A stretch of DNA of 41,000 nucleotides. Origin: a virus. The stretch lies in the IMG/VR virus record IMGVR_UViG_3300034062_002216, positions 1-41,000 of that record; one strand, 5' to 3'. Below are positions 5,447 through 37,827 of this stretch, piece by piece; position 1 is the stretch's first letter, and each line of letters opens with the position of its first letter. Made by a program: the position numbers and the translations under genes. Under the pieces are notes generated by a model. It saw only the letters and a list, made by a program, of their open reading frames with translations, did not search any database and was not told the DNA's origin.

Positions 5447-5838
5447 TCCCTCGTCCACTCGTCGCCCTCCTTCCTGAAGAGCAGCGGCAGGAGGCCGGCG
5501 TCGGTGGCGATCGGGATCATCGACGAGCGGAAGACTGCTGTGTGGTGCGACTTCTTGAAGACGCCGGCCACGGCCAGCCCCATCGCGCACCACGCTGCCA
5601 GCCGGCGACCGCGGTACGCCGGGGCGACGAAAGCCTCGAGCGTCGGCCAGTCCCTCCACGGCTCCGTCCTCGCCCAGGCGACGATCTCGCCTTGATCCAG
5701 CGCGATGGCGATCGTGCCGGTGGCGGCGTCATTTCGCAGGGCAGTCTGGAAGTCGCTGTTTGCCCGAGTGAGATGCTGGGCAATGAAGTGTCGCTCCGTC
5801 GGACGAAGCATCATCGCGGGGAGGATGAAGCAGTCCAT
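5443..5838 (-). CDS. GNAT-like N-acetyltransferase
   Basis: A 131-residue protein. The central strand GTIAIALDQGEIVAWAR is followed by LEAFVAPAYRGRRLAAWCAM, which matches the GNAT acetyl-CoA-binding motif A (V-x-P-x-x-R-G-x-x-x-A). These enzymes move an acetyl group from acetyl-CoA to an amine; the substrate here is unknown. The ATG at 5838 shares one base with the methyltransferase stop (TAATG). The link with the DNA methyltransferase could be functional (for example in DNA or nucleoprotein modification), but that is inference. Confidence 0.65.
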   Translation of the reverse strand: MDCFILPAMMLRPTERHFIAQHLTRANSDFQTALRNDAATGTIAIALDQGEIVAWARTEPWRDWPTLEAFVAPAYRGRRLAAWCAMGLAVAGVFKKSHHTAVFRSSMIPIATDAGLLPLLFRKEGDEWTRE

Positions 5839-7526
5839 TACTCTGCCTGTGTAGCCTTCTGGATGCGGTAGCCGAGCCACGCCATGCACGGGACGGCCAT
5901 GGAGTTGCCGAGGGCGCGGTACTTCGGCCCGTCGGCGGCGGGCTTCTTGCGGAAGGTGATGTCGCAGTGCTCGTCGGGGAATCCCTGGAGGCGGCAACAT
6001 TCCGTCGGCGTGAGCCGGCGAACTTGCATCGCGTGCCGGACGAACTGGTAACTGTGCTCCGCACTAGTGCGAAGAGCCTGCATCGTCGGGTTCTCGACCT
6101 TACCGCCGCCGGAGGCCCACTGGACTTGCATTTGGGCGCGCTTGGCTTTGGTGAACACAGCCGGGATGATCGGCGTCCCGCGGCCCGTGCCGTCCTCCTC
6201 GACCGCAGCAGCTCGAGTGGTCAGCGCGTGGGTGCGCGGCCCAGTTACGCAGGCCGGCACCTGCGGCCGCGAGAGCGGCCCAGTACCCTCCTCGGTGATG
6301 CCGAGGCCATCATTGGCATCGCCGTAGCCGCCGCCGTTCTGCCAGTTGAAGCCCAGTGACTGCCGCAGGACGAGCGTGTCCTGATCGCCTTTGTCAGCAT
6401 CGGCCGAGAGCGGCGGCACGACTTCGTCAGGCTTTTCGTCCTTGCCGCGAGTGTAGTGCGACGGCTTGAAGGCGACGGCCTCTCCGACAACGAACGTGTC
6501 CTGCGAATCACGCCCGCTTCCGAACACGCCGCCTTTGCTTTGGTTCCCAGCCGACAGCGCGTATGCCGGGTCTGGGTGGCCGCTGGGCGCAATCCACCCG
6601 CCCCTCTGCCCCTTGTTGCAGTTGAGCGTCCCAGCGTGGTCTACCAGCCGCTCTGCGTTGGCCTGGTCGCTCGCGTTCCACATGACTGCGGCCGGCCCAC
6701 GGGCCACCATGCTCGCCGCCACGCCGTCATCGGTGATCTGCGGTTCGTACTGGGCATTCACTCCTTGGTTGAACATGGCTCGGTCAAGGTGGTACGGCTC
6801 ACCACTGCTTGCAGGGCGCTCCGCAGAGCCTCCGGCAACTGCTTGCCGCGCTTCTCCGCGCGTCGGAGGATTCCCGAGCACGCTTTCTCGGAGAGAAAGT
6901 ATCTCTGATGGACAGGCCCGCTCTCCAAGACTTGCGACAAGCTCACAAGGCACGGCAACGAGAAAGACCCGCCGACGCCTTTGAGCCACGGCAAAATACT
7001 GGGCATCGAGGACTCGATAACCCACTCGGACGGTTTCGCTACCGAGAAAGCCTGCTTTAGGCCACTTCCCGTCTTGAGTTTCAATGGTGTCATCGACCCC
7101 AAGGAGGCCGCTGATGAAGCATCCGAAGGCGTTGTCCTTGGTGCTGAGAACTCCTGGGACGTTTTCCCAAAGAGCGATTGCTGGCGGTCTTCCATGACGC
7201 TTCCTCACTTCGTTGATGTGGTGAAACAGATGAACGTAGATCAGCGACAAGTTGCCGCGTTCGTCATCAAGGCTCTTCCGTAAGCCAGCCACGCTGAACG
7301 CTTGGCACGGCGTGCCGCCGACGAGCAGATCGCACTCCGCGAGCAGCTCCTCCGGCCACTCACGGTACTTGCTCATGTCGCCGAGATTCGGCACCGACGG
7401 GTAGCGCTGGGTCAGCACCGCCGACGGGAACGGCTCGATCTCGCTGAACGCCAGCGGCGTCCAGCCGAGGCCGTGCCACGCGGTCGATGCTGCTTCGATG
7501 CCAGAACAGATGCTTATGTATTTCAT
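5838..7526 (-). CDS. DNA cytosine-5 methyltransferase
   Basis: A 562-residue C5-cytosine DNA methyltransferase. Motif I is ICSGIEAAS (residues 6-14), motif IV GGTPCQAFS with the catalytic Cys at 74, motif VI ENVPG (121-125) and motif VIII QRRRRVF (182-188). Motif IX (RRLTPTECCRLQGFPD) and motif X (ALGNSMAV) are near the C-terminus. About 300 residues separate motifs VIII and IX, making a large target-recognition region. No restriction endonuclease is adjacent, so this looks like an orphan phage enzyme protecting phage DNA from host restriction. The start overlaps the previous stop as ATGA. Confidence 0.95.
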   Translation of the reverse strand: MKYISICSGIEAASTAWHGLGWTPLAFSEIEPFPSAVLTQRYPSVPNLGDMSKYREWPEELLAECDLLVGGTPCQAFSVAGLRKSLDDERGNLSLIYVHLFHHINEVRKRHGRPPAIALWENVPGVLSTKDNAFGCFISGLLGVDDTIETQDGKWPKAGFLGSETVRVGYRVLDAQYFAVAQRRRRVFLVAVPCELVASLGERACPSEILSLRESVLGNPPTRGEARQAVAGGSAERPASSGEPYHLDRAMFNQGVNAQYEPQITDDGVAASMVARGPAAVMWNASDQANAERLVDHAGTLNCNKGQRGGWIAPSGHPDPAYALSAGNQSKGGVFGSGRDSQDTFVVGEAVAFKPSHYTRGKDEKPDEVVPPLSADADKGDQDTLVLRQSLGFNWQNGGGYGDANDGLGITEEGTGPLSRPQVPACVTGPRTHALTTRAAAVEEDGTGRGTPIIPAVFTKAKRAQMQVQWASGGGKVENPTMQALRTSAEHSYQFVRHAMQVRRLTPTECCRLQGFPDEHCDITFRKKPAADGPKYRALGNSMAVPCMAWLGYRIQKATQAE

Positions 7527-9061: not shown

Positions 9062-9439
9062 TCACGAGACTGCCTCCAGGGTGGCCTTGTGCGGCGGAAT
9101 GAGCCCGTCGGCATCGCCGAGCACGGTGATCTCCCTGCCGTCGCAGTCGTCGGCGAAGGCGAGCCAGCGATGATGGCCCTGCATCGCCGCGACGTCGTCG
9201 GCGTACCGCTCGACGGGGTGAACGCCGCTGGCGTCCAGCAGTGCCGTTTCGTAGGCTAGGCAGTCCCCGGCCCACATCGTGCTGACGACGACGTTGGACT
9301 TCGACTTCGTCCGGCAGACGGTGCGGATGACCTCGTCGTCGCGGCCGTTGGCGAGCATCTCGCGGACGCCGCGGGCCATCGACGGGGCGCCGGCCGCATC
9401 GCAGAGGTTGGCGAGAAGTGTGAGTGTCAGCGCGCTCAT
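9062..9439 (-). CDS. Unknown protein encoded after tatA
   Basis: A 125-residue protein beginning MSALTLTLLANLCDAAGAPS and containing MWAGDCLAYETALLDASG and WLAFADDCDGREITVLG. Its ATG overlaps the tatA stop as ATGA, so it is cotranslated with tatA. It has no signal peptide or membrane helix and I do not recognise a domain. Confidence 0.75.
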   Translation of the reverse strand: MSALTLTLLANLCDAAGAPSMARGVREMLANGRDDEVIRTVCRTKSKSNVVVSTMWAGDCLAYETALLDASGVHPVERYADDVAAMQGHHRWLAFADDCDGREITVLGDADGLIPPHKATLEAVS

Positions 9440-9624
9440 GCCGTCACCTCCTTCTCCATCTCCTGCTCCAGAGCCTTGCACTCACGGTCGACTTCCAGGA
9501 AACCTCGCTTGAACTCCACGATCGATTGGCCGACGCTGCGCGCCACCTTCGGCAGGCGGCCTCCGAACAGCATCACGGCGACGCAGGCGATCAGACCGAC
9601 TTCGATTGTTCCGAGCCCGAACAT
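9436..9624 (-). CDS. tatA: Twin-arginine translocase subunit TatA/E-like protein
   Basis: A 62-residue protein with the full TatA plan: a short N-terminus MFGLG, a membrane helix IEVGLIACVAVMLF, the hinge FGGRLPKVARSVGQS, an amphipathic helix IVEFKRGFLEVDRECKA and a charged tail. The FG motif and the L-P-x-x-A-R-S-x-G hinge are family hallmarks. TatA forms the pore component that exports folded proteins. The ATG has a strong AAGGAGA site and the gene overlaps the upstream gene, whose product has a Tat-like signal, by 34 bases. A phage-borne tatA is unusual; the gene sits in the csrA operon. Confidence 0.88.
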   Translation of the reverse strand: MFGLGTIEVGLIACVAVMLFGGRLPKVARSVGQSIVEFKRGFLEVDRECKALEQEMEKEVTA

Positions 9625-9950
9625 TTCACTTCTCCTTCAGTGATGGGGATGGAAAACACGCTCATGTCGCAGTACGACGGCATGACGATTGCGGGGGCGT
9701 CGGTGAAGCCGTGGAAAGCCATGCCTTCCACGAAGTGCTTCCGTAGGGCGACGAGCCGCTCCTCCGACACTGGCACGTTCACCTTGATGACGAATAGCGG
9801 TCGGCACTTCTGCGCCTCCGTCTCTTTCACCGGCATCATCTCGACGCTTTCGACGCCTACGGCGGCCTCGTCGCCGAGCAGCTTTGCCGCCGGCAGGGCC
9901 ACGCCGGCCAGCGGGAACATCCTCAGAAGGTTTCTGCGATCAGTGATCAC
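9591..9950 (-). CDS. Small protein with a twin-arginine-like signal sequence
   Basis: A 119-residue protein starting GTG at 9950 (GTGA overlap). The N-terminus ITDRRNLLRMFPLAGVALPA has the RR-N-L-L twin-arginine pattern followed by a moderately hydrophobic stretch, as in Tat signal peptides; a cleavage site around PAA is possible. The rest, including PLFVIKVNVPVSEERL and MAFHGFTDAPAIVMPSY, is an unrecognised alpha/beta domain with three cysteines. Its gene is immediately followed by tatA, suggesting a matched substrate and translocase component. Whether it is really exported is not shown. Confidence 0.75.
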   Translation of the reverse strand: MITDRRNLLRMFPLAGVALPAAKLLGDEAAVGVESVEMMPVKETEAQKCRPLFVIKVNVPVSEERLVALRKHFVEGMAFHGFTDAPAIVMPSYCDMSVFSIPITEGEVKCSGSEQSKSV

Positions 9951-10228
9951 TTCTTGACTCCGAAGACCTTGCGAATTTCCTCGGCCACGGCCTGCGTGTC
10001 CTCCGGCCGCTTCCGGTCGCCGACGGCGTACTGCATCTCGACCACGAGGTACGCCGCCATGTCCGTCACCTCCTTCGCCCACTCCTCCGGCCCGCAGACG
10101 CCAGGCTGGCATCGATCCACCGTGGCCTTCGCCAGATCGGTGGCGATGCTGACGAACTCCTGCTTCCAGTCACGCGCAGGTCGGTATGGCTGCCACGGGC
10201 TGCCGTAAATCGGCGTGCGTTCGTTCAC
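9947..10228 (-). CDS. Unknown protein between csrA and the Tat pair
   Basis: A 93-residue soluble protein starting with GTG at 10228, overlapping the csrA stop as GTGA. It contains WKQEFVSIATDLAKATVDRC and EEWAKEVTDMAAYLVVEMQ and ends EEIRKVFGVKK; it is probably mostly helical. I do not recognise a family. The overlap implies that its translation depends on ribosomes finishing csrA. Confidence 0.75.
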   Translation of the reverse strand: MNERTPIYGSPWQPYRPARDWKQEFVSIATDLAKATVDRCQPGVCGPEEWAKEVTDMAAYLVVEMQYAVGDRKRPEDTQAVAEEIRKVFGVKK

Positions 10229-10401
10229 GACTTCGCCTCCTGCGTCCGCATCACCAGCTCCTCGCGGCTGATGCGAATGTGCCGCGGCGCCTTGATGACG
10301 AGCTTCACTGTCTTGCCGACGACGCTGTCGACGATCACCTCGATGCGAGGCCGCTCGAGGACGATCTTCTGGCCGGGGCGTCGAGTCAGAACCAGTGCCA
10401 T
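10225..10401 (-). CDS. csrA: CsrA-like carbon storage regulator (RNA-binding)
   Basis: A 58-residue protein of CsrA size and pattern. The N-terminal strand LVLTRRPGQKIVLE matches the L-I-L-T-R-R-x-G-E-x-I core with the RNA-contacting R-R. It is followed by strands IEVIVDSVVGKTVKLVIKAP and the C-terminal APRHIRISREELVMR, equivalent to A-P-x-x-V-x-V-x-R-x-E-L/I-x-x-R. CsrA dimers bind GGA motifs in mRNA leaders and block or activate translation. The gene has its own predicted promoter and a hairpin with GGA in the loop over its Shine-Dalgarno site. Downstream genes including tatA are coupled to it. Confidence 0.88.
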   Translation of the reverse strand: MALVLTRRPGQKIVLERPRIEVIVDSVVGKTVKLVIKAPRHIRISREELVMRTQEAKS

Positions 10402-10404
10402 CGG

Positions 10405-10420
10405 ACGGAGTCCTTTCCGT
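10405..10420 (-). promoter_or_regulatory. Predicted CsrA-binding hairpin over the csrA ribosome site
   Basis: On the mRNA the leader forms a perfect 5-bp stem ACGGA/TCCGT closing a 6-base loop AAGGAC, three bases before the ATG. The loop holds both a GGA and the Shine-Dalgarno sequence. GGA in an apical hexaloop at the ribosome site is the preferred target of CsrA, so this looks like an autoregulatory site. Confidence 0.6.
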
Positions 10421-10433
10421 TGTGTTGGTGCGT

Positions 10434-10462
10434 AGGCTACAGACCTTTTCCAGCACCGTCAA
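10434..10462 (-). promoter_or_regulatory. Predicted sigma70-type promoter of the csrA-tatA operon
   Basis: On the minus strand: -35 TTGACG (10462-10457), exactly 17 bases, then -10 TAGCCT (10439-10434), followed by AC so that the motif reads GTAGCCTAC. The start codon is 32 bases beyond the -10 box, leaving room for the hairpin leader. Confidence 0.55.
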
Positions 10463-10920: not shown

Positions 10921-12564
10921 TCAGTAGGGTAGTGACATCGAATGAGGCTCGTCGGACTCGCAGACGATCAGCCGCTCCTTGGCCCTGGTGACGCCGACGT
11001 ATTCGATCCGGCACTCCTCGTCGTGCGACCGGGGGTCGATCTCCCTGGCGTTCTCGATCTTCCACGACGTCTCGGTGGCGAGGACGACGTCCTGGGCTTC
11101 CATGCCCTTCGACCCGTGGATCGTCGAGAGCCGGACGTTCGGGTTGGTCGCCTGGTCGGCCCCGTGCCGCTTCGCTGCGGCGTACCACTTCTCGCCGCCG
11201 GGGATCAGAGAGGCCCACCGGCCGTCCCTGATCCTGCCGACGAGGTGCTCCGTTGGCCCGAAGTCGCCGATCTCGTCGGGGTGGATGTAGTCGATCCCCT
11301 CCCGCCGGCCGTCCTTCCAGGCGGCCTTGTGGCCCCGGTTGAGGAAGACCTCCTCGCCAAGCCCCTTGGCTGGCGTCAGGGAGATCGCAGCCCGCCACTG
11401 CTCCCCGGAGATGCCCTGGCCGTGCTGGAGCCGCCAGTAGGCGTTGCAGGCCGTCAGGTGGGCTGTGTCGCTGTCCTGGTTGATTCTGGCGTAGGGAATC
11501 TTCCGCTGCTCGAGGATCGTGGCGTACTTTGCCAGCGAGTAGTTGCAGCGGGCCAGCACCAGCGTCGTCCTCGACGGGTCGACGCCTTGGAGAGCCCGCT
11601 CGATCGACGGCTCGCGGATGACGCTGCCCTCGTGGGGGGCCGGGGCGATCCCGCGGTCGAAGTAGCCGGCCTTCATCCGCCGAAGGCACCGCTCCCCCAG
11701 CTCCATGACCGGCCGGGGGCATCGCCACGACTGCGGCATCGTCTTGACCTTGTCGACCTCCCACGACATGAAGTTCGTGTAGTCGGCCCCCCCGAAGCCG
11801 AAGACCGACTGGAAGGGGTCTGCCGCCAGATACGTCCAGATGACATCCGGCCCGTCGGAGAGCCGCCGGCAGGCCAGATCGACCAGTTTCGACGAGTCTT
11901 GGTACTCGTCGAAAATCCAGACCTTCACGCCCGGCGGCAGATCGCCCCGCGGCTCGACCATCTCCGGCCCGTCGAGGCCGAACTCAACCCCGGCGAACCG
12001 GCCGACGATGTCCACGAAGTCGACCTTGTCGTGCAGTCTCTTGGCGTCCTCGTACTTCTTGACGAACCGCTTCACGGCGTCGAACGACGGGACGTCCGAA
12101 CCGACCCTAGATAGTTCGGAGTGGACGGTCGCCAGAGGCACCACACGATTGCGCGAGATGTCCCAGATGTTCAGGGCCGCGGCGGCCTCCTCGTCGCCGA
12201 CGTAGGTCGCGAACCCGCTGTCATCGACGGCCCGGCGAGTCACCGTCACTCGCAGTTGGTCGGCGATCCACCTCGTCGACTTGTCGTCCCCGGAGAGCAA
12301 CTGCTCGCCCCGGATGCCGAGCGACCGATAGCACGTTGAGTGAACCGTCCGAAACCACCCGTGCTTCGACAGGATGCTGGGGTGGACATCGAACTTGTCG
12401 GCCGCCCGGTCGACCATCTCCTCCCTCGCCGCCCTGGTGAACGAGGCGAACCCGATCAGCGACGGGTCGCACTGCAACTTGTCCACCGCGGCCTCCATCG
12501 TCTTGAGCAGCGTGCTCGTCTTGCCCGTCCCGGCCCCGCCGATCAGCTTCGCAGTCTGTTTCAT
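10921..12564 (-). CDS. UvrD/PcrA-like superfamily 1 DNA helicase
   Basis: A 547-residue 3'-5' type SF1 helicase. Walker A is GGAGTGKT (9-16), motif Ia lies in FASFTRAAREEM, Walker B is FDEYQD (218-223) and motif III FGFGGADY. Motif IV is SWRCPRPV, motif V STIHGSKGMEA and motif VI EYVGVTRAKERLI. It is shorter than bacterial UvrD or PcrA (about 700 residues), with reduced 1B/2B subdomains, as in other phage members. It lies beside primase-polymerase and a second helicase, so it is probably part of the phage replication or recombination machinery. Confidence 0.93.
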   Translation of the reverse strand: MKQTAKLIGGAGTGKTSTLLKTMEAAVDKLQCDPSLIGFASFTRAAREEMVDRAADKFDVHPSILSKHGWFRTVHSTCYRSLGIRGEQLLSGDDKSTRWIADQLRVTVTRRAVDDSGFATYVGDEEAAAALNIWDISRNRVVPLATVHSELSRVGSDVPSFDAVKRFVKKYEDAKRLHDKVDFVDIVGRFAGVEFGLDGPEMVEPRGDLPPGVKVWIFDEYQDSSKLVDLACRRLSDGPDVIWTYLAADPFQSVFGFGGADYTNFMSWEVDKVKTMPQSWRCPRPVMELGERCLRRMKAGYFDRGIAPAPHEGSVIREPSIERALQGVDPSRTTLVLARCNYSLAKYATILEQRKIPYARINQDSDTAHLTACNAYWRLQHGQGISGEQWRAAISLTPAKGLGEEVFLNRGHKAAWKDGRREGIDYIHPDEIGDFGPTEHLVGRIRDGRWASLIPGGEKWYAAAKRHGADQATNPNVRLSTIHGSKGMEAQDVVLATETSWKIENAREIDPRSHDEECRIEYVGVTRAKERLIVCESDEPHSMSLPY

Positions 12565-15458: not shown

Positions 15459-15908
15459 CTAGCCGGTCGTCAGGTGCCGTAGGACGGGCTGGACGTATTC
15501 GCTGACGATGCCGGCGAACGGCGTCCCCTCGGCCCACGGCTCGCGCGGGTCGCGGCCGGCGTCCTTCGACAACTCCTTGAGCAGGCTCTTCAGCCTGGCG
15601 GTGTTGATGCCGACCAGCCCCTTGTCGACGCCGGCCTTGCGGGCGGCCTCGAGCACCGCATCCTGGGCCTCGCCGCTGGCGCTGATTCGATGCTCCCACT
15701 CGACCCGCCACGAGCGGCCGGCGACGCGGACGCCGTCCAGCCGGCCGCCGGTCATCTCCTCGACGGCGACGTTCGCCATCGCCTCCCGCTTCTTCTTCAG
15801 CTCCTTGACGCGCAGCTCCGCGTCGTCGATCTCACGGTCGATCGCCGTGATCTGCTCCAGCACGCTGGAGAGACTGTTGTCCTCGCCCATAGCCTCTGAG
15901 AATGTCAT
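15459..15908 (-). CDS. Coiled-coil protein overlapping the SNF2-type helicase gene
   Basis: A 149-residue protein with an N-terminal coiled coil (ITAIDREIDDAELRVKELKK) followed by a compact domain containing GVRVAGRSWRVEWEHRISAS. Two ATG starts are possible: 15908 (GAGG site) and 15890. Either gives an unusually long out-of-phase overlap (77 or 59 bases) with the helicase 3' end. It may act with the helicase or as a nucleic-acid-binding accessory; no known family is clear. An 82-base gap without a gene follows and carries an AGCCTAC motif ahead of the next gene. Confidence 0.75.
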   Translation of the reverse strand: MTFSEAMGEDNSLSSVLEQITAIDREIDDAELRVKELKKKREAMANVAVEEMTGGRLDGVRVAGRSWRVEWEHRISASGEAQDAVLEAARKAGVDKGLVGINTARLKSLLKELSKDAGRDPREPWAEGTPFAGIVSEYVQPVLRHLTTG

Positions 15909-17253
15909 CGATAACCTCGCGTCTATTCGACAAAGCCTCGTACACGCGGCCGTCTGCCGTAGGCTTGCCGTGTAGGGTACTGACCAGAGAAAAAAACCGC
16001 GTGTGCTGTGTCTGCCCCGGCCGGTGCAGGCGGGCGATGGCCTGGAGATACTCGGACAGCGAGTGCCCGAGGCTGTAGAAGACGCCCAGGCGGGCGCGGG
16101 TGAGGTCGATGCCGATGCCACCCGATTGAATCTGAGCCACCAGCACCTGCGTCTTCCCTGACTGCCACTCGGCAAGGGAGTCGATTTTACCAGACAGCTC
16201 GCTGTAGGTGGCCCCGTGCTTCTGGCACGCCTCGATCACGCAGTCGATGTCACTGCGAAACCGTGCGAACACCACCAGCGGCTCGCCGGCGTCGATGTCC
16301 TCGAGCATCTCCGCGAACGCCGCCTGCTTCGACGGGTGCTCGTCGATCCGGCGGGCCGCCTCCTCGTCGTCCAGCCGGACATAGCCCTGGCACGACTGGA
16401 GCATCCGCAGGAGGCCAATCATGGCGTTCTTCGGGGTGACGAACTTGCCGGCCTCAACCTCGGCGACGAAGTCCTTCTCGAGCTGCCGGTGGACGTTGGC
16501 CTCCTTGGCCGTCATCTCCACCGGCACCTCGACATGGAGGATCGGCGGCAGATCGAGGACGTCCTCGCTCTTTCGATGGAACGTCGTCGCGGCGATCTTC
16601 TCGCCAAACTGCTTTTGGTTCCGGTATCCAATCACCATGCCGGGGAGGTGCGGATTCGTGATGGCGTAGGTGGCCTTGAACAGGGTGTAGGACGTACCAA
16701 ACGTGGTGCATTCCGGCGACTCGACGGCCCGGTAGATGCCGAAGGCGTCGAGGATCGTCTGGGCCAGGAGCGTCCCTGAGAGGGCGATCCGCTTGGCCGT
16801 CGGGCATCGCTTCGTCTGCTTGGCCGCCCACTTCGACTGGGCGCCTGACGGAGACTTGAGCCGGTGGCACTCGTCGAACACGAAGCAGTCCCACGGCACC
16901 TTGTCGGCCTGCTTCACCCGCCACCACGTTTCGTAGTTGGCGATGATGACCAGTGGTGAGGTGTCGGCGCAGGCGGCGGCTATCTGCTCGCCCTTCTTGG
17001 CCGATGTGCCGCGATCGAGGATGAGCAGGCGGGCCTGCGGCATCCAGAGCGAGAACTGCTTCACCCAGGCGGCGATGACGGCTTTTGGGCACCCCACCAT
17101 CACGCGGCGGGCGCGGCCGGCATCAAGCTCCTGCCGGATGATCTCGATGGCGCACCGGGTCTTGCCGGTTCCCATCCCCATATGAAGAACGGCGTCGCGT
17201 CGGCCTCCGGCCCACGCGATCGCCTCCCTCTGATGACGCCAGAGCCCATCCAT
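15832..17253 (-). CDS. SNF2-type superfamily 2 helicase
   Basis: A 473-residue SF2 helicase. Motif Q-like is LWRHQREAI, Walker A GMGTGKT (26-32), motif Ia MVGCPKAVIAAWVKQF, Walker B FDECH (126-130), motif III LSGT (158-161), motif V QIQSGGIGIDLTRA and motif VI QAIARLHRPGQ. The Q-x-x-x-R-x-x-R-x-G-Q form of motif VI is typical of SNF2-like translocases. It probably remodels or unwinds DNA during phage replication, paired with the primase-polymerase. The ATG has a GGAGGAG site; the 3' end overlaps the next gene. Confidence 0.92.
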   Translation of the reverse strand: MDGLWRHQREAIAWAGGRRDAVLHMGMGTGKTRCAIEIIRQELDAGRARRVMVGCPKAVIAAWVKQFSLWMPQARLLILDRGTSAKKGEQIAAACADTSPLVIIANYETWWRVKQADKVPWDCFVFDECHRLKSPSGAQSKWAAKQTKRCPTAKRIALSGTLLAQTILDAFGIYRAVESPECTTFGTSYTLFKATYAITNPHLPGMVIGYRNQKQFGEKIAATTFHRKSEDVLDLPPILHVEVPVEMTAKEANVHRQLEKDFVAEVEAGKFVTPKNAMIGLLRMLQSCQGYVRLDDEEAARRIDEHPSKQAAFAEMLEDIDAGEPLVVFARFRSDIDCVIEACQKHGATYSELSGKIDSLAEWQSGKTQVLVAQIQSGGIGIDLTRARLGVFYSLGHSLSEYLQAIARLHRPGQTQHTRFFSLVSTLHGKPTADGRVYEALSNRREVIDDILRGYGRGQQSLQRAGADHGDRP

Positions 17254-17298
17254 GTGGCGACTCCTCCATGAGTGCCGCAGAATGTATCGGCAGAATGC

Positions 17299-18283: not shown

Positions 18284-19153
18284 ATGACGCTCCGTAGCTT
18301 TCTTGACGACTACTACGCTCCCATGCGTGGCATCAGCGACCGCACGCTGCGGTTGTACGGATTCACCCTGGCCGCATTCGGCGAGTTCTTGGGCCACGAG
18401 CCGACTCTGGAAGACCTCGACCCGCTGGTGGTCGCCAGGTTCCTCTCGTGGCGCCTCCGCGACCGGGAGCCGGGGACGGCCGCCAAGGATCGGGCGCAGC
18501 TCCGCGCCCTCTGGCAACTGGCCTGGGACGAGGCCATCCCCGGCGTGAAGCGTGGCCCGTCGGCCAGCCTTCGACGAATCGTCGTGCCGGAGCGTGTGCC
18601 GGAGGCGTGGCTGACCGACGAGATGCGGCGGCTGGTGGCGGCGGCCGGCGAGGAGCGCGGCCTCGTCGATGGCGTCGATGCCGCCGGCTATTGGCGGGCG
18701 CTGCTACTGGTCACCTACGACACCGCGGAGCGCATCTCGGCGGTCTTGAGCCTCAAGTTCCGCGACGTCCACGACGGGATGGTTCACTTCCGCGCCGAGG
18801 GCCGCAAAGGCCACCGCAGGGACATCACGCGCTCGATCAAGCCGGAGACTCAAGCCGCGATCGCGGCGATCTCGACGCCTCCTCGAGACGTCGTTTTCCC
18901 GTGGGGGCGGGCCGTCAGCACGCTCTACCACCACCTTGACCGCGTCCTGAAGCGGGCTGGCCTGCCGGTAGATCGCCGCAGCAAGTTCCACCGCATCCGC
19001 CGGACGGCGGCTTCGTACTACGAGGCTGCGGGCGGCGATGCCCAGGAACTGCTCGACCACTCGTCGCCGGCCCTGAAGCGGAAGAGCTACATCGACCCCA
19101 GGATCACCGGGGCCGGCGCCGACGCCGCGGCTAAGATTCCGCGGGTGGGCTGA
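18284..19153 (+). CDS. int: Tyrosine recombinase / phage integrase
   Basis: A 289-residue tyrosine recombinase. The N-terminal half is the SAM-like core-binding domain. The catalytic residues are visible: R150 in TAERISAVLSL, K175 in GRKGHRRD, H236 and R239 in HRIRR, H259 in LLDHSS, and the nucleophile Y269 in KSYIDPR. It cuts and rejoins DNA at att sites through a 3'-phosphotyrosine intermediate. The overall pattern (D-R-R-S-K-F-H-R-I-R-R, then L-L-x-H-S-S) resembles recombinases I associate with planctomycetes. Its presence argues for a temperate phage. It converges on the tail-fibre operon, overlapping that gene's end by 23 bases. Confidence 0.93.
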   Translation: MTLRSFLDDYYAPMRGISDRTLRLYGFTLAAFGEFLGHEPTLEDLDPLVVARFLSWRLRDREPGTAAKDRAQLRALWQLAWDEAIPGVKRGPSASLRRIVVPERVPEAWLTDEMRRLVAAAGEERGLVDGVDAAGYWRALLLVTYDTAERISAVLSLKFRDVHDGMVHFRAEGRKGHRRDITRSIKPETQAAIAAISTPPRDVVFPWGRAVSTLYHHLDRVLKRAGLPVDRRSKFHRIRRTAASYYEAAGGDAQELLDHSSPALKRKSYIDPRITGAGADAAAKIPRVG

Positions 19154-21659: not shown

Positions 21660-22016
21660 TCAGGTCTTCATCGTCACGATGCACACCGCTGCCGTCGCGG
21701 CGGCCTGACCGGCGACCAGCCGGATCGCGCCGGCGCCATAGCAGGCATCCGGCAGGGCGTAGACCCGCGCCTCAGTCGTGGACGGAGCCAGGGTGATGTC
21801 GGCCGCCGACCCGCTTGAGTCGTACAGACGGCCGAACGTGCCGACCGTGGCGTCGGAGGCCCAGACCTGAATGCTGGTGGCGGCCGTCGAGACGGTGCCC
21901 ATCTCGATCGTCCCGCCGGCAACGTCGTCCCAGCGGAGGGTGGTGGCGGCGGCTACGGCCGTCGAGAGCGTGACGCCGATCGCCTTGAACTTACGTCGAA
22001 TCTTCGGCTCGGACAT
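21660..22016 (-). CDS. Small beta-rich structural protein
   Basis: A 118-residue protein beginning MSEPKIRRKFKAIGVTLSTA and continuing as alternating beta strands (TTLRWDDVAGG, SIQVWASDATVG, ITLAPSTTEARVYALPD). The Ser/Thr/Ala-rich composition resembles small head- and tail-decoration proteins in this genome (27948-28316, 37828-38271). A near-perfect AAGGAGGT site precedes the ATG, suggesting very high expression, as for virion components. Confidence 0.7.
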   Translation of the reverse strand: MSEPKIRRKFKAIGVTLSTAVAAATTLRWDDVAGGTIEMGTVSTAATSIQVWASDATVGTFGRLYDSSGSAADITLAPSTTEARVYALPDACYGAGAIRLVAGQAAATAAVCIVTMKT

Positions 22017-22068
22017 GGCTGCGCACCTCCTTGTGCATTGCGGGCCTCTGGGGGCCACTCGTGGCGTG

Positions 22069-28331: not shown

Positions 28332-31300
28332 TTAGTCAAACATTCCCGGCAGATTGCCGGTGTTTGCCTTCGCGATGGCGACCAGTTCACTGAGCGACGC
28401 GCTCTGCTTCTGGAGTTCCACGAGGTTCTGGTTGCGGGCCGAGTCGTCGCCCCGCAGGAGGCGGTTGAGTTCCGAGGCTCCCTGAACCGTCGAAACGTCG
28501 GTGGCCTGGAGTGCCGCCCGAGACGGGCCTTGGAGGACGGCGTTCTGCACCTCGTCGGCGAGGTTAAAGATGGCCGGGGCGGTTTGGCGCTGGGCTTCTT
28601 CGACCGCGCGGCGCTGGGCGGGGGCGGCGTTATCTAAGAACTCCCGCGCGCCGCCGTTGAATGTGCGCTGTATGTCGTTAATCGTCCGCGCAAGCTCTTC
28701 GCCGGCTCGCTGGGCTGGAGTCTTCCTGGCTTGAAAGCCTCGCTCTTGCGCCTGCCGGCGCCGCTCCTCGAAGTTGCTGGCGTCACGGGCGTTGCGAACG
28801 GCGGGGTCGTTGTCAACGGCCCGCTGGACGGCGGCGTCATTTTCAGCGCGGAGCCGCTCGCGCTCGGCAATCAAATCGTTCCGCTGGCCTTGATTCAGGA
28901 CATCCTTGCCATTTAGCTGGCTGTCGATTTCAGCAATCCTGCCCTCGCGGCGGCGAATTCCCTCGTCCTGCCTTGCCCGTTCTTCGGCGAGTGCCGTCTC
29001 GCGGCGAACATTGTCCCTTAAAACCCGCTGCGACTCGAGGTCTCGCTCTGCGCGAGCCCGCTCCGGGGACGGGTTACCCCGCGGGACTCTCCTCTCAAGG
29101 TCGTCGCCACGCGCTTGGTCGGCGGCAGCCTGGGCCGACTGGAAGTTGCTCTCGGCCTCCTGTCGAACCCTGTCGAACGCCGACGCGAAGAGTTCGACGG
29201 ATCGTCGAGCGGCGTCGATTGCCTTGATCTCGCGGTCGCGGGCGCTAATGGCGTCAGATACCGCTTTGATTTCTGTCTGCGCCGAAGACTGCGCCGCGTT
29301 CCGCTCTTGTGGGTCTTCGATTTTTGCCGCGTCAACGAGTTGGTCGCGTGCTGCGCGAAGCCTGGCGCCGAGCGAATCAAGGTCGTTCTCCAACTTGCGA
29401 GCCCCTGGGACACCCTGATCAAACGCCTTGGCGGCTTCATTCTGCCCCTTGGCTATAAGCTCGCTCGCATTGTTGATGGACTGGGCTGCGCGGATGAAAG
29501 ACTCGTCATTTAGCTGTGACAGTGATCTGTCGAGAAGCGAAAGCTGGCTTCTCAGCTTCTCAAGTTCGCCAGATAGGTCGATCCTGTCGGATGCCCCGAA
29601 TGGCCCTCGCGGCTGAATGGCGCCGACCGACGACAGCTGGCCTCTTACTATATTGCGGCGCTGTAGGATGTCGCCGAAAGTATCTCCTTCGTTGACCCTC
29701 CTGGCGTCCTGCTCAAGAAGCGTCTGCCGTGCAAGCCGCGACCGATCCCTGAATGGCGACCCTGCCGCAAGCTCGTTGGCTCGGCGCAGCCTGGCCGCCG
29801 TGTCTTGCAGTAGCTGGCGAGTTTGATCCGCCGTTGGCGCTGGCGTGTCGGCGATCGACTTGCGAACCCTGATCCTTGCTGCCTCAAGGTCGCCCAAGGA
29901 GGTTCTCAGGAACTCAGCTCTGGCGCTATTGGTTTCCGTCTTCAATGACTCAGCGACGACTGACTTCCTCGCCTCGACGTCCAACGACCTTGGGTCGGTC
30001 GCAGCCGCTGCGTCGGCTCTTGCTTCAGCGGATTCTCTCCGCAATTTTGCGATTTCTTCGGCGAACTGCCTGGCGTCTCGTCCAGCATTTGAAAAGACGT
30101 CGCCGGCCAGCCCTCTTCCGAGAGACTCCAGGGCAGATCGGAGCCCCTCGGCAACCGTTCGCTGCTTCTCCAGGGCAGAGGTAAGTGCATTTGCTTGAAT
30201 CTCTGTTGTCTTGCCTGAGTTGGCCCACTTGATGTACGCGACGATGAGCTGCCCAGTGATCGCCGCAGATACGCCAGCGATGAGCCCTGTAGTTCCTCCG
30301 AGGACGAAGCCCAACTGGGAGATATTGTTGCCGGCGGCGCGGATTCGCTGGTCAAGGCCGCCCGTGACGCTGAAGAAGTCATCGATGGCGAAGACGGCCT
30401 GCTGGACGCCGAGGCCGATGTTGCCGAAGGCACCGCGGCCGATGTCGCCGGCACGCTGGAATTGGCGATTGAGCCTATCTGGCGAGATGCCCGCGGCAGC
30501 GGCGGCGGCCCGTATGGCGTCTTGGGCAACGCCATTGATCTGACGCCTCGTCTGCTCGAGGTCGATCGTGCCGCTGTCGGCCGCTGTGGCTATCGCCGTG
30601 CGGAGCCTGTTGAAGGCATCCAGCGCAGGCCCTCGCGCCTGCGTCGAGACGCCGGAGAGAGTCCGTTGCAGAACCTGTAGCTGCGCGGTGTACCCTTGCA
30701 GCGACTGAGCCTGAAGTCCGAACTCGAGGCCGCGGCGACCTGCGCCGCCGAACTGCTGTCCGAAGTCAAGCGCCCGCTGCGACCGTGCGACGCGCTGCTC
30801 AAAACGCTCGGCCTCGTTGGCGGCGTTTCTGATCTGGGCGGCCGTGGCCCCGAACCCCTGTCGGGCCAGGGTTGACGCCTGGTCGGTCGCTCTCTGGAGG
30901 GCGGGGATCAATGCCGTCCGCAGCGGGTCGGGGAGCGTGTCGAGTTGCTGGCGAGCGGCGGTGACGCGGTTGATGACGTTGTCGACCTGGCGGCCGACCT
31001 CAAGCTGACCTCCCAAAGGCCCGGCGCCGCCGGGGATGTCGCCGCCCATCCGCGAGCGGGCCTGACGCTCAAGGTCGCCTGCGGTGTCGATTGGCGTGGC
31101 TCGCTGAGAGAAACGGCCCTGGGCCTCGGCGATCTCAGCATCCCGCCGGCGGCGTTCCTCTTCCTGCCTGAGCCTGAGCAGGTCGCCGACCGGCGTGGCC
31201 CGTCTGGAGAACTGGCCTTCTGCGGCAGCGATTTCGGCATCCCGCCGGCGGCGTTCCTCTTCCTGCCTGAGCCTGAGCAGGTCGCCGACCGGAGTGGCTC

Positions 31301-32213
31301 GCCTGGAGAACTGGCCTTCTGCGGCAGCGATTTCGGCGTCTCTTTGTCGGATCGCTTCAGCCGCCGCGGGCGCCGCCACTGCGGCGTCAAGAGACTCCGA
31401 AAGCTCGCCTGACCGCCTGATCAGCCGAGTAAGCCTCTGCTCCGCTGCCGCCGTGTCGATGTTCAGGATGCGGCGACTCTCGATGGTTGCCTGAACACGC
31501 TGGATCAGGTCATCAAGCCTCGCCAATTGCTGAACAGACCGGCCCACAGACCCGTCGTCAAGGACGCTCGCAGCCGCGCCCTGCGCCCGATTTCTTGCCG
31601 CCGCCGAAGCGGCCAGCGAGTCCCTGACTCGCGGGGCGACGAACGCCAGTTCACGCCCCCGCGGCCCGCTGCCTGCGATTGCCGACGCCTCCGCCAGCCT
31701 GTCGGCGGCCTGCGCTGCCTGCTCGGCCTTGAGGCGGATACGCTCAAAGCTCCTCTCGCCAACAGTGCCACCGCGATTCAGCACAGCCGACAAGTTCTCG
31801 GCGCTTCGCTGGGCCGACCTCATGGCGGGCTCGAAGGCCGTCTGGACGCTGGCCGAAAGGCGCTCCACCGTCCTCGCTGCGGCGCCCAGCGGCTGGTTGA
31901 CCTCAGAGGCCGCTCGCTGAATCCTCTTGAACTGCTCGACCGCCTGAGTCAGCGACGCGAAGGTGGATGTGTCGAACCCCTTGAACGACAGCCGCTGCGA
32001 CGCGACAGCCTGAAGGGCGCGTGATACCTTCTGAGACTCGGTGTAGATGCCCCGAAGAGAAGTCGCCGCAGACCGCTCTGCCGACTTGAGCGACGACTCC
32101 ATCGCCGACGCGAACGAGCGAACCTCCTTCGCCGACGCATTCAACTTGCTGTTGAAGTCGGAGGTGTTCGCCGTTACCAGCGCCGAGATTTTGCCGAGAT
32201 ACGCTTTTGCCAT
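28332..32213 (-). CDS. Tail tape measure protein
   Basis: At 1293 residues this is the largest gene of the window. Long Ala/Arg/Glu/Gln-rich helices fill most of it, with a hydrophobic block near residues 620-665 (GFVLGGTTGLIAGVSAAITG, then QLIVAYIKWA), as usual for tape measures that enter the host membrane. A 33-residue unit (RDAEIAAAEGQFSRRATPVG...) is repeated in tandem at nucleotides 31050-31343. The length sets the tail length in this family; 1293 residues suggests a long tail, typical of a siphovirus. It follows the tail chaperone genes exactly as in lambda-like tails. Confidence 0.95.
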   Translation of the reverse strand: MAKAYLGKISALVTANTSDFNSKLNASAKEVRSFASAMESSLKSAERSAATSLRGIYTESQKVSRALQAVASQRLSFKGFDTSTFASLTQAVEQFKRIQRAASEVNQPLGAAARTVERLSASVQTAFEPAMRSAQRSAENLSAVLNRGGTVGERSFERIRLKAEQAAQAADRLAEASAIAGSGPRGRELAFVAPRVRDSLAASAAARNRAQGAAASVLDDGSVGRSVQQLARLDDLIQRVQATIESRRILNIDTAAAEQRLTRLIRRSGELSESLDAAVAAPAAAEAIRQRDAEIAAAEGQFSRRATPVGDLLRLRQEEERRRRDAEIAAAEGQFSRRATPVGDLLRLRQEEERRRRDAEIAEAQGRFSQRATPIDTAGDLERQARSRMGGDIPGGAGPLGGQLEVGRQVDNVINRVTAARQQLDTLPDPLRTALIPALQRATDQASTLARQGFGATAAQIRNAANEAERFEQRVARSQRALDFGQQFGGAGRRGLEFGLQAQSLQGYTAQLQVLQRTLSGVSTQARGPALDAFNRLRTAIATAADSGTIDLEQTRRQINGVAQDAIRAAAAAAGISPDRLNRQFQRAGDIGRGAFGNIGLGVQQAVFAIDDFFSVTGGLDQRIRAAGNNISQLGFVLGGTTGLIAGVSAAITGQLIVAYIKWANSGKTTEIQANALTSALEKQRTVAEGLRSALESLGRGLAGDVFSNAGRDARQFAEEIAKLRRESAEARADAAAATDPRSLDVEARKSVVAESLKTETNSARAEFLRTSLGDLEAARIRVRKSIADTPAPTADQTRQLLQDTAARLRRANELAAGSPFRDRSRLARQTLLEQDARRVNEGDTFGDILQRRNIVRGQLSSVGAIQPRGPFGASDRIDLSGELEKLRSQLSLLDRSLSQLNDESFIRAAQSINNASELIAKGQNEAAKAFDQGVPGARKLENDLDSLGARLRAARDQLVDAAKIEDPQERNAAQSSAQTEIKAVSDAISARDREIKAIDAARRSVELFASAFDRVRQEAESNFQSAQAAADQARGDDLERRVPRGNPSPERARAERDLESQRVLRDNVRRETALAEERARQDEGIRRREGRIAEIDSQLNGKDVLNQGQRNDLIAERERLRAENDAAVQRAVDNDPAVRNARDASNFEERRRQAQERGFQARKTPAQRAGEELARTINDIQRTFNGGAREFLDNAAPAQRRAVEEAQRQTAPAIFNLADEVQNAVLQGPSRAALQATDVSTVQGASELNRLLRGDDSARNQNLVELQKQSASLSELVAIAKANTGNLPGMFD
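31050..31343 (-). repeat. Intragenic tandem repeat, 99-bp period, in the tape measure gene
   Basis: Two almost identical 99-bp copies (about 31343-31245 and 31244-31146) encode RDAEIAAAEGQFSRRATPVG plus DLLRLRQEEERRR. A third degenerate copy follows (RDAEIAEAQGRFSQRATPID). The near-identity of the first two DNA copies indicates a recent duplication. Confidence 0.85.
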
Positions 32214-32217
32214 CGCC

Positions 32218-32532
32218 TCATCCTTGAGGTGCCTGGAGCTTCATCAGCTCGGCGAAAATCTGGTCGTTCGTCTGCTCTGGTTTGATCGCTCGGGGGATGA
32301 ACACCGACTCTTCGGGGATGTCCTTACGCTTGTAGTTGCCGGAGGAGGCCATGATGATCCGGCATATCCTCGCGGTCTGAGCCCAATGGTCGGGGAGTGG
32401 ATACCGCTGGTCGAAGGCGTACCACTCCGCGATCTCTTCGCTGTCAACCTCCTGTAGCAACCTCTTGACCGACATCCCCAGGCACAGGGCCAAGCGGAGG
32501 TAGAACCTCCGCTCGGGCCTGTCGGTCATCAT
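32218..32532 (-). CDS. Tail assembly chaperone, gpT-like partner
   Basis: A 104-residue protein (MMTDRPERRFYLRLALCLGM, SVKRLLQEVDSEEIAEWYAF). The pattern L-A-x-x-L-G-M-S-V-x-x-L-L-x-E-x-x-S-x-E-I-x-E-W-x-A-F is that of phage minor tail T / DUF4035-type proteins. It can start at ATG 32532, overlapping the upstream stop as ATGA, but it is more likely made as the C-terminal part of a fusion by -1 frameshifting at GGGAAAA, as lambda gpGT is. It precedes the tape measure by four bases, as expected for the chaperone. Confidence 0.85.
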   Translation of the reverse strand: MMTDRPERRFYLRLALCLGMSVKRLLQEVDSEEIAEWYAFDQRYPLPDHWAQTARICRIIMASSGNYKRKDIPEESVFIPRAIKPEQTNDQIFAELMKLQAPQG

Positions 32533-33316: not shown

Positions 33317-33649
33317 TCAGGAGAGGCGGAACGTGGCCGACCCCCGGATGAAGTCGCCGACAGAGCCGCCCAGCGACGCCTGCGACACCGTCGCATTGCC
33401 GCTGAAAGACATCGGCCCGCTGATCGAGAGGGCGCCGGACGAACCCGCCGAGAGGATGGTCGTGTTGATGTAGTCGATCTGGACTTCGCGCTCGGTCGCG
33501 AACCCGCCGACGAACACCCGCCGGCCGTTGGCGGCGATGCCGAGGTGGGTCGCGTCGAGGAGGTCTTGCGAGTCATTGACCTGAACCGAGGTGACGGTGA
33601 CCGCGGAGCCACCGAACGTGAACGTAAGTCCCTGTGCCGACGTTCCCAT
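33317..33649 (-). CDS. Tail tube protein candidate, copy 1
   Basis: A 110-residue beta-rich protein: MGTSAQGLTFTFGGSAVTVT, LLDATHLGIAANGRRVFVGG, and ending GGSVGDFIRGSATFRLS. The D-A-T-H-L-G...G-R-R-V-F segment is similar to the D-M-T-Q-V-G...G-R-K-M-V of the next gene, showing a tandem duplication. One of the two is presumably the tube protein; the other could be a minor tube or tail decoration subunit. Confidence 0.75.
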   Translation of the reverse strand: MGTSAQGLTFTFGGSAVTVTSVQVNDSQDLLDATHLGIAANGRRVFVGGFATEREVQIDYINTTILSAGSSGALSISGPMSFSGNATVSQASLGGSVGDFIRGSATFRLS

Positions 33650-33670
33650 GTATCGCGCCTCCTTGCGCTA

Positions 33671-35186: not shown

Positions 35187-35692
35187 GAGACGGTTCCCTC
35201 GCCGATGAGGACGATTTCGTAGGTTGCGCCGGGGGCGCCCGACACCCGCAGCTTGTTGCCCGCGGCCACTGCAATTCCGGCCGCCGACGGGTCGCAGACG
35301 AACACGGCGGCGCCCTTGGATAGCGTGTACCCGCTGTCAAACGATGTTGGGGTTCCCGTCCACGGCGATGACGGTGCCACATCGCCCTGCTGGTCGCGCC
35401 CCAGAGAAATGCCGCCGTCTGCCGCCGAGGTGTTCCTGATGTACAGAGCCTTGATCGACGAGAAGGCGACGGTTCCTCGATCGTCGGCCAATGCGGTCAG
35501 GACGAGGTCGTCGACCTCGCTGACGCCGATGGCCCTGGTGCCGCTCCAGGTGACCTGCGCCTGGTTGGCGGCTGTGCCATTGCTGAAGAACGCCGCGAAC
35601 GTCGCCGGCGTGACCCGCATCTGAGTCGACATTTCGTCGCTGGTCGTCTCGTGCGACACCAGAGACAAGGAAGCCTGCGCTGTCAGCGGCAT
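35183..35692 (-). CDS. Beta-rich structural protein, paralog 1
   Basis: A 169-residue protein. ALYIRNTSAADGGISLGRDQ, FVCDPSAAGIAVAAGNKLRV and the end SGAPGATYEIVLIGEGTVS match segments of the protein encoded just upstream (35694-36182), namely CVRNLSSSNAIGMTAGW and LRIGGPSGTEYEIHIMGN. The two are therefore tandem paralogs. The position within the head-tail connector block suggests decoration or connector-associated roles; no named family. Confidence 0.75.
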   Translation of the reverse strand: MPLTAQASLSLVSHETTSDEMSTQMRVTPATFAAFFSNGTAANQAQVTWSGTRAIGVSEVDDLVLTALADDRGTVAFSSIKALYIRNTSAADGGISLGRDQQGDVAPSSPWTGTPTSFDSGYTLSKGAAVFVCDPSAAGIAVAAGNKLRVSGAPGATYEIVLIGEGTVS

Positions 35693-37770: not shown

Positions 37771-37827
37771 GGCGCGCCTCATGCGCCTTTGTCGGCCGTC
37801 CTTGGCCGTCCCGCATGGAATACGGGA

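Follow-up and report, generated by a model that had tools for sequence, protein, structure and literature searches.

Covarying GGA-hexaloop hairpins over ribosome binding sites suggest a CsrA regulon within the genomes of an uncultured tailed-phage lineage

A family of uncultured tailed phages carries a short hairpin over the ribosome binding site of its own csrA gene, and hairpins of the same kind stand before several other genes of these phages. The structure, its covariation, the geometry of its loop, its recurrence on several genes and its association with csrA-carrying phages are observed directly in the sequences compared. Through these hexaloop hairpins the phage CsrA probably represses translation of its own mRNA and of the other phage genes of a regulon; binding, repression, timing, promoter and coupling are the parts of this account that we infer. 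With somewhat less assurance, we favor the wider view that in this lineage the phage's own CsrA may act as a global translational repressor in the manner of RegA, with csrA as the feedback node, and may be primarily a regulator of phage genes and not only a tool against the host.

CsrA autorepression, Shine-Dalgarno hexaloops and phage-borne csrA are already known. A covarying CsrA-type regulon within phage genomes appears to be new as far as a literature search showed; in this search, for which subscription papers were mostly out of reach, no paper was found on CsrA targets inside a phage genome. A 2025 study (PMC11879866) describes the role of phage csrA in the phage lifecycle as previously untested and, in its available text, cites proposals of action on the host. 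Candidate CsrA targets in the phage genomes themselves, kept by compensatory change, make this a directly testable question.

The csrA gene and its leader

The window, that is, the whole 41-kb stretch of an uncultured virus record that was analysed, contains tailed-phage genes for an HK97-type capsid protein, a prohead protease, a head-tail connector and a phage-type integrase. The integrase gene (18284-19153, plus strand) is a hint of a temperate lifestyle, and a C-5 cytosine DNA methylase gene is located at 5838-7526 on the minus strand. Among cultured phages no close relative turned up, since the capsid and SNF2 matches listed were all at most 32% identical, and two scans of cellular genomes with the CsrA protein found no relative. 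Genes were called with a simple GC3-based caller made for this analysis. The csrA locus comprises the following features.

9947-10228, minus strand: 93-aa gene 3' of csrA, whose GTG overlaps the csrA stop by 4 bases (GTGA, 10225-10228)
10225-10401, minus strand: csrA, encoding a 58-aa CsrA protein (Pfam PF02599, 51.1 bits, cut-off 27)
10401-10399, minus strand: csrA start codon ATG, from the sequence
10402-10404, minus strand: spacer of 3 bases (CCG) between hairpin and csrA start codon
10405-10420, minus strand: csrA leader hairpin, 5-bp stem ACGGA/TCCGT, hexaloop AAGGAC containing the Shine-Dalgarno GGA
10434-10462, minus strand: predicted promoter TTGACG-17-TAGCCT, conserved in relatives

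The 58-aa product matches only CsrA in Pfam and belongs to PHROG 9500, a CsrA-like regulator. Its L5 and R46 align with L4 and R44 of E. coli CsrA, which are described as two critical RNA contacts (PMC7652899), and both are invariant in nine relatives. A monomer model reached a pLDDT of 82.5; the best 15 Foldseek rows obtained with it were all CsrA, RsmA or RsmE, 2JPP included, with weak E-values, 0.022 at best, for this very small protein. Translational coupling from csrA to the 93-aa gene is possible, as predicted from their 4-base stop/GTG overlap. Also downstream of csrA on the minus strand, 9436-9624 and 9591-9950 hold the gene for a TatA-like protein (Pfam TatA_B_E, 36 bits) and an adjoining gene; the N-terminus of the adjoining gene's product is what we take to be a twin-arginine-like signal (DRRNLLRMFPLAGVALPAA). 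In one related locus (L002) the TatA start falls within the csrA 3' end.

Read from 10420 to 10399 on the minus strand, the sequence is ACGGA AAGGAC TCCGT CCG ATG. The leader's GGA, which ends 9 nt ahead of the csrA start codon, serves as the ribosome binding site. The initial annotation had described an ACGGA/TCCGT stem around the loop AAGGAC, with the GGA of the hexaloop as Shine-Dalgarno site three bases from the csrA start; the sequence and the fold of the 16-mer agree, and the CCG spacer at 10402-10404 accounts for the distance. It had given 10402-10420 with no strand, and here the region is right while the stem-loop proper is 10405-10420 on the minus strand. Its appeal to a known CsrA target geometry also holds, since the loop is of the ANGGAN hexaloop type that PMC7652899 describes for RsmE.

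The 16-mer alone folds as claimed, at -4.9 kcal/mol. In a stretch from the predicted transcript start through 36 nt of coding sequence, the hairpin lies within the minimum free energy (MFE) fold with pair probabilities of 0.61-0.66. The suggested folding of the leader thus stands for short stretches but not for folds of 61 and 99 nt, where more upstream sequence brings competing folds and the hairpin is absent from the MFE. The shuffle z-scores are unremarkable (-1.67 for the 16-mer and -1.08 for the 24-mer), and an Rfam search of the window gave 0 matches. Given the weak z-scores and the competing longer folds, a single sequence is unable to prove the csrA hairpin. The same z-scores speak for chance pairing around a strong Shine-Dalgarno sequence, as does the occurrence of GGAAAGGANTCC before ATGGC also 5' of unrelated phage genes, among the matches listed; the motif search with GGAAAGGANTCC...ATGGC, in which the matches listed were mostly unrelated genes, was not counted as evidence. 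Chance nevertheless deserves almost no credence, and a reading as chance or as a plain strong Shine-Dalgarno sequence is refuted by the comparative tests described below, namely the covariation, the loop geometry and the leaders found afterwards.

Between 9000 and 12800 a strict sigma-70 scan gave 0 promoters, and the csrA promoter emerged by comparison only. A TTGACA-like hexamer followed by a 17-base spacer and TANNNT, ending 24-35 nt before the ATG, is present in 25 of 31 distinct upstream regions (0.04 in shuffles). The transcript is predicted to start near 10427, which would give a leader of about 26 nt with little beyond the hairpin.

Covariation and loop geometry in the phage family

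The csrA relatives were gathered by protein search, so that the leader sequence had no part in their selection. The exceptions are L024/L137 and L045/L138, which were met first in the motif search and then recovered by a protein scan whose query alignment contained them. The ten loci L001-L003 and L011-L017 include two near-duplicates, and all of them have GGA-AAGGA[CT]-TCC directly 5' of the start. In the group near to the window (L011, L012, L014-L017, L137) the pair outside GGA/TCC is out of register, and the 5-bp stem is not universal; by eye, and outside all counts, a 1-nt bulge would restore the outer pair in L014, L015, L016, L017 and L137. A scan with an SNF2 helicase alignment led to a broader family, in which a diverged csrA occupies the same neighbourhood, and its hexaloops are closed by the stems CCGA/TCGG, AGCAA/TTGCT, GCTGA/TCAGC, CGCAA/TTGCG, CGG/CCG, GAGG/CCTC, CTGA/TCAG and GCA/TGC.

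A stem-blind rule was applied to these leaders, in which the GGA nearest to the start is taken and a leader is counted as paired when at least 3 Watson-Crick bp surround NNGGAN. By this rule 20 of 24 distinct csrA cores are paired by at least 3 bp (shuffled mean 5.0, maximum 11 in 2000), with seven different 3-bp stems among the paired leaders. Paired cells amount to 75.8% against 53.8% in shuffles, 0 of 500 shuffles being as high, and the covariation score is 0.517 against 0.157, again with 0 of 500 shuffles as high; slid structures score at most 0.19. All five stem pairs have changes on both sides. Two measures are weaker, as 31 of 500 shuffles reach the number of both-side-changed pairs and 77 of 500 that of further pair types. 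Four csrA leaders reached later via the tail gene (L358-L361) fit without exception, their stems having 4-5 bp. The hairpin is missing from the csrA leaders of L200, L201, L203 and L205, and also from L218, which was left out of the 24; by eye, and outside all counts, CGGC/GCCG around a 7-nt loop is possible in L201, L203 and L208.

In the csrA leaders, therefore, the stem covaries and the loop is constant in the ANGGAN geometry of CsrA/RsmE. Covariation in relatives is the strongest evidence on the csrA leader hairpin and, at the level of sequence comparison, confirms it as real. Stem conservation in relatives had been named beforehand as the refuting test, and pairing is kept via two-sided changes around a constant GGA hexaloop. 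The interpretation of the csrA leader as a probable autoregulatory site, as proposed in the initial annotation, is supported by this comparison.

The loop size is equally specific. Twelve records of csrA phages, made up of the window and 11 relatives, contain 143 unique AAGGA sites before starts, and 25.2% of these are flanked by at least 3 bp at the hexaloop geometry. The next geometries in the same records are 3/2 with 12.6% and nested 1/0 with 8.4%, all others giving 0-5%; as background, 7.2% of all AAGGA sites, start sites included, pair at the hexaloop geometry. The maximum is found exactly at NNGGAN, and other loop sizes are not enriched. In a control of unrelated viral loci, taken from the motif search with the motif sites removed before the count, 8 of 157 sites are paired. 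This geometry also bears on the possibility that the hairpins work with no protein, their own stability tuning how accessible the Shine-Dalgarno site is, for instance in response to temperature. The stems do close right around that site, with -5 to -9 kcal/mol in short stretches. The GGA, however, is left unpaired in a loop fixed at six, whereas in a masking hairpin the GGA would more probably be paired, with no need of a fixed loop or a nearby phage csrA, and such protein-free tuning is highly improbable.

Recurrence on other phage genes and association with csrA

The initial annotation was confined to csrA and overlooked four further window genes with the same kind of hairpin. Among the 241 ANGGA sites on both strands of the window, only seven have a hexaloop closed by 4 bp or more, and five of these seven coincide with Shine-Dalgarno sites located 7-11 nt ahead of a gene start. 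The one of csrA has 5 bp; the other four are listed here.

17260-17273, minus strand: hairpin ACTC-ATGGAG-GAGT before the SNF2 helicase gene (15832-17253); the family covaries
22023-22036, minus strand: hairpin GCAC-AAGGAG-GTGC before a conserved gene (21660-22016, MSEPKIRRKF...)
32216-32229, minus strand: hairpin CCTC-AAGGAT-GAGG before a 1293-aa tape-measure-like gene (28332-32213)
33655-33668, minus strand: hairpin GCGC-AAGGAG-GCGC before a 110-aa putative tail gene (33317-33649)

The remaining two ANGGAN hexaloops (11094-11107 and 37793-37808, minus strand, stems of 4-5 bp) are away from called gene starts.

The gene families were tested one by one, with a stem-blind choice of ANGGA sites and shuffles within each family; this choice was made because the nearest-GGA rule misses the SNF2 site of the window, which has two GGAs. 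The csrA family is paired above chance (16 of 18), and so are the families of the SNF2 helicase (9 of 25, expected 1.2), of a small VIDWxDG-type gene (8 of 15, expected 1.2), of the UvrD helicase (5 of 18, expected 1.3) and of Prim-Pol (4 of 27, expected 0.8). The SNF2 stems differ by record (ACCT/AGGT, GCA/TGC, GCT/AGC, CAC/GTG, ACTC/GAGT), and even the nearest-GGA rule counts 8 paired cores among the 30 distinct ones of SNF2 (shuffled mean 0.8). In the MSEPKIRRKF family 7 of 7 distinct sites are paired with an invariant stem; in the tape-measure family 4 of 7 are paired with few stem types (p 0.25). The tail gene relatives, for which 80 of 312 matches were kept for analysis, have the hairpin in 21 of 22 distinct leaders as GCGC/GCGC or GCGT/ACGC, and here too the stem types are few (p 0.066). 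Relatives of the window's 158-aa gene, a neighbouring family, are paired in 0 of 11 cases, and pairing is thus not general to ribosome sites. The shuffles and Fisher tests ignore shared ancestry, and how many different stems occur is a better guide. The csrA-type sequence GGAAAGGAGTCC also precedes a 117-aa gene located upstream of csrA, as well as the UvrD helicase gene (G008 position 11769, G011 position 35325), as if leaders had been copied or had converged.

The hairpin is associated with the csrA gene itself. ANGGA sites fit in 43 of 241 cases in csrA-carrying relatives versus 4 of 213 in csrA-less, SNF2-carrying records (p 4.6e-9), and in 32 of 230 versus 4 of 213 when the paired csrA leaders are set aside (p 2e-6); this comparison is between phage lineages, so that host and ancestry are confounded. 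Of these csrA-less records, 28 were searched whole and gave 0 matches to CsrA. Among 18 tail-gene records searched whole, csrA is present in all 8 longer than 38 kb, and the 10 records that do not contain it are fragments shorter than 32 kb. From its presence in all eight long records it follows that the hairpin site and the csrA gene travel together.

These data weigh on the question of which CsrA reads the sites. The main reader may be the CsrA of the host, phage genes being tied in this way to host physiology while the phage CsrA is a competitor of the host protein or targets mRNAs of the host. ANGGAN is described as a general CsrA site (PMC7652899), and host CsrA would be expected to bind as well; moreover, host manipulation is among the proposals for phage CsrA given in PMC11879866. 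Against a host reader stand the joint travel of site and csrA, the background level in csrA-less SNF2-carrying phages, though these are other lineages, and the csrA leader, which keeps the site in most of the family and is most simply understood as feedback. We regard the host CsrA as an unlikely main reader and prefer the phage protein in that role.

The hairpin signature does not extend to the other csrA phages compared. Their csrA leaders have the hexaloop hairpin in 0 of 13 cases (eleven named phages and two unclassified records), and in 40-kb stretches the GGA sites before annotated starts fit in 1 of 40 cases for PTXU04 and 0 of 34 for BcepMigl. On these counts, the signature is that of this phage family and not of phage CsrA at large.

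Proposed regulation and comparison with known systems

In the mechanism that we propose, the csrA mRNA would start at its own predicted promoter, a few bases 5' of the 16-nt hairpin. A dimer of the phage CsrA would bind the GGA hexaloop and exclude the 30S subunit, so that translation of csrA, and perhaps of the overlapping downstream gene, would be limited and the protein held at a set level. A higher CsrA level would shut down the other hairpin-bearing genes. The SNF2 and UvrD helicases, Prim-Pol and the tail genes would come under the same CsrA, a phage-wide translational regulator sensing its own level. Ribosome exclusion is a common mode of CsrA repression, and the RsmE target is an ANGGAN hexaloop hairpin, as described in PMC7652899. 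The opposite outcome, in which CsrA binds and activates or stabilises the mRNAs, has precedents in ymdA and flhDC (PMC7652899). In the activation cited there, CsrA either exposes a ribosome site that was masked or shields the 5' end of the mRNA, whereas the loop to be bound here is the ribosome site itself, 7-11 nt before the start in the window, a layout cited for repression. Activation is accordingly quite improbable, and repression is the preferred outcome.

The nearest known counterpart is RsmE/RsmA on the Shine-Dalgarno site of hcnA (PDB 2JPP; PMC7366521, PMC7652899), where likewise one ANGGAN hexaloop hairpin presents a GGA that is the ribosome site. The hcnA gene is a bacterial metabolic gene, neither csrA nor part of a phage regulon, and binding is proven there but predicted here. 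The csrA gene of E. coli is autoregulated by translational inhibition (PMC7652899), as is proposed for the phage gene; it has five promoters and four CsrA sites, whereas a single promoter and a single hairpin, in a leader of about 26 nt, are predicted in the phage.

On the phage side, the analogue is RegA of T4, which acts on about 30 mRNAs (PMC3014915). Like RegA, the phage CsrA is small, phage-encoded and predicted to be a competitor of ribosomes on many phage mRNAs, those of DNA-replication genes included. RegA is an unrelated protein whose operators are described as A+U rich and without structure (PMC3014915), while the phage csrA sites are GGA hairpins. Membership of the RegA type was considered and rejected on the same grounds, as the protein has CsrA as its sole Pfam match and its sites are GGA hairpins; RegA is an analogue only. 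If the proposal is true, these phages have solved in a second, unrelated way the problem for which T4 uses RegA, and covarying hexaloops at ribosome sites may serve as a sequence signature for regulons of uncultured phages.

Phage-borne csrA has been reported in 30 of 2517 phages (PMC7366521). The csrA genes of cultured phages, that is, rsmM/bci of Pseudomonas phages and those of PTXU04 and BcepMigl (PMC7366521, PMC7546807, PMC11879866), likewise encode a phage-borne CsrA. In the available text of these three sources, host functions are indicated rather than phage genes. Knockdown of the PTXU04 csrA leads to smaller plaques (PMC11879866). In Escherichia phage PTXU04 (L353, 19763-20189) csrA and the end of the holin gene overlap, with a predicted terminator directly after csrA, and in Burkholderia phage BcepMigl (L354, 19980-21364) csrA is placed directly 5' of the major head gene.
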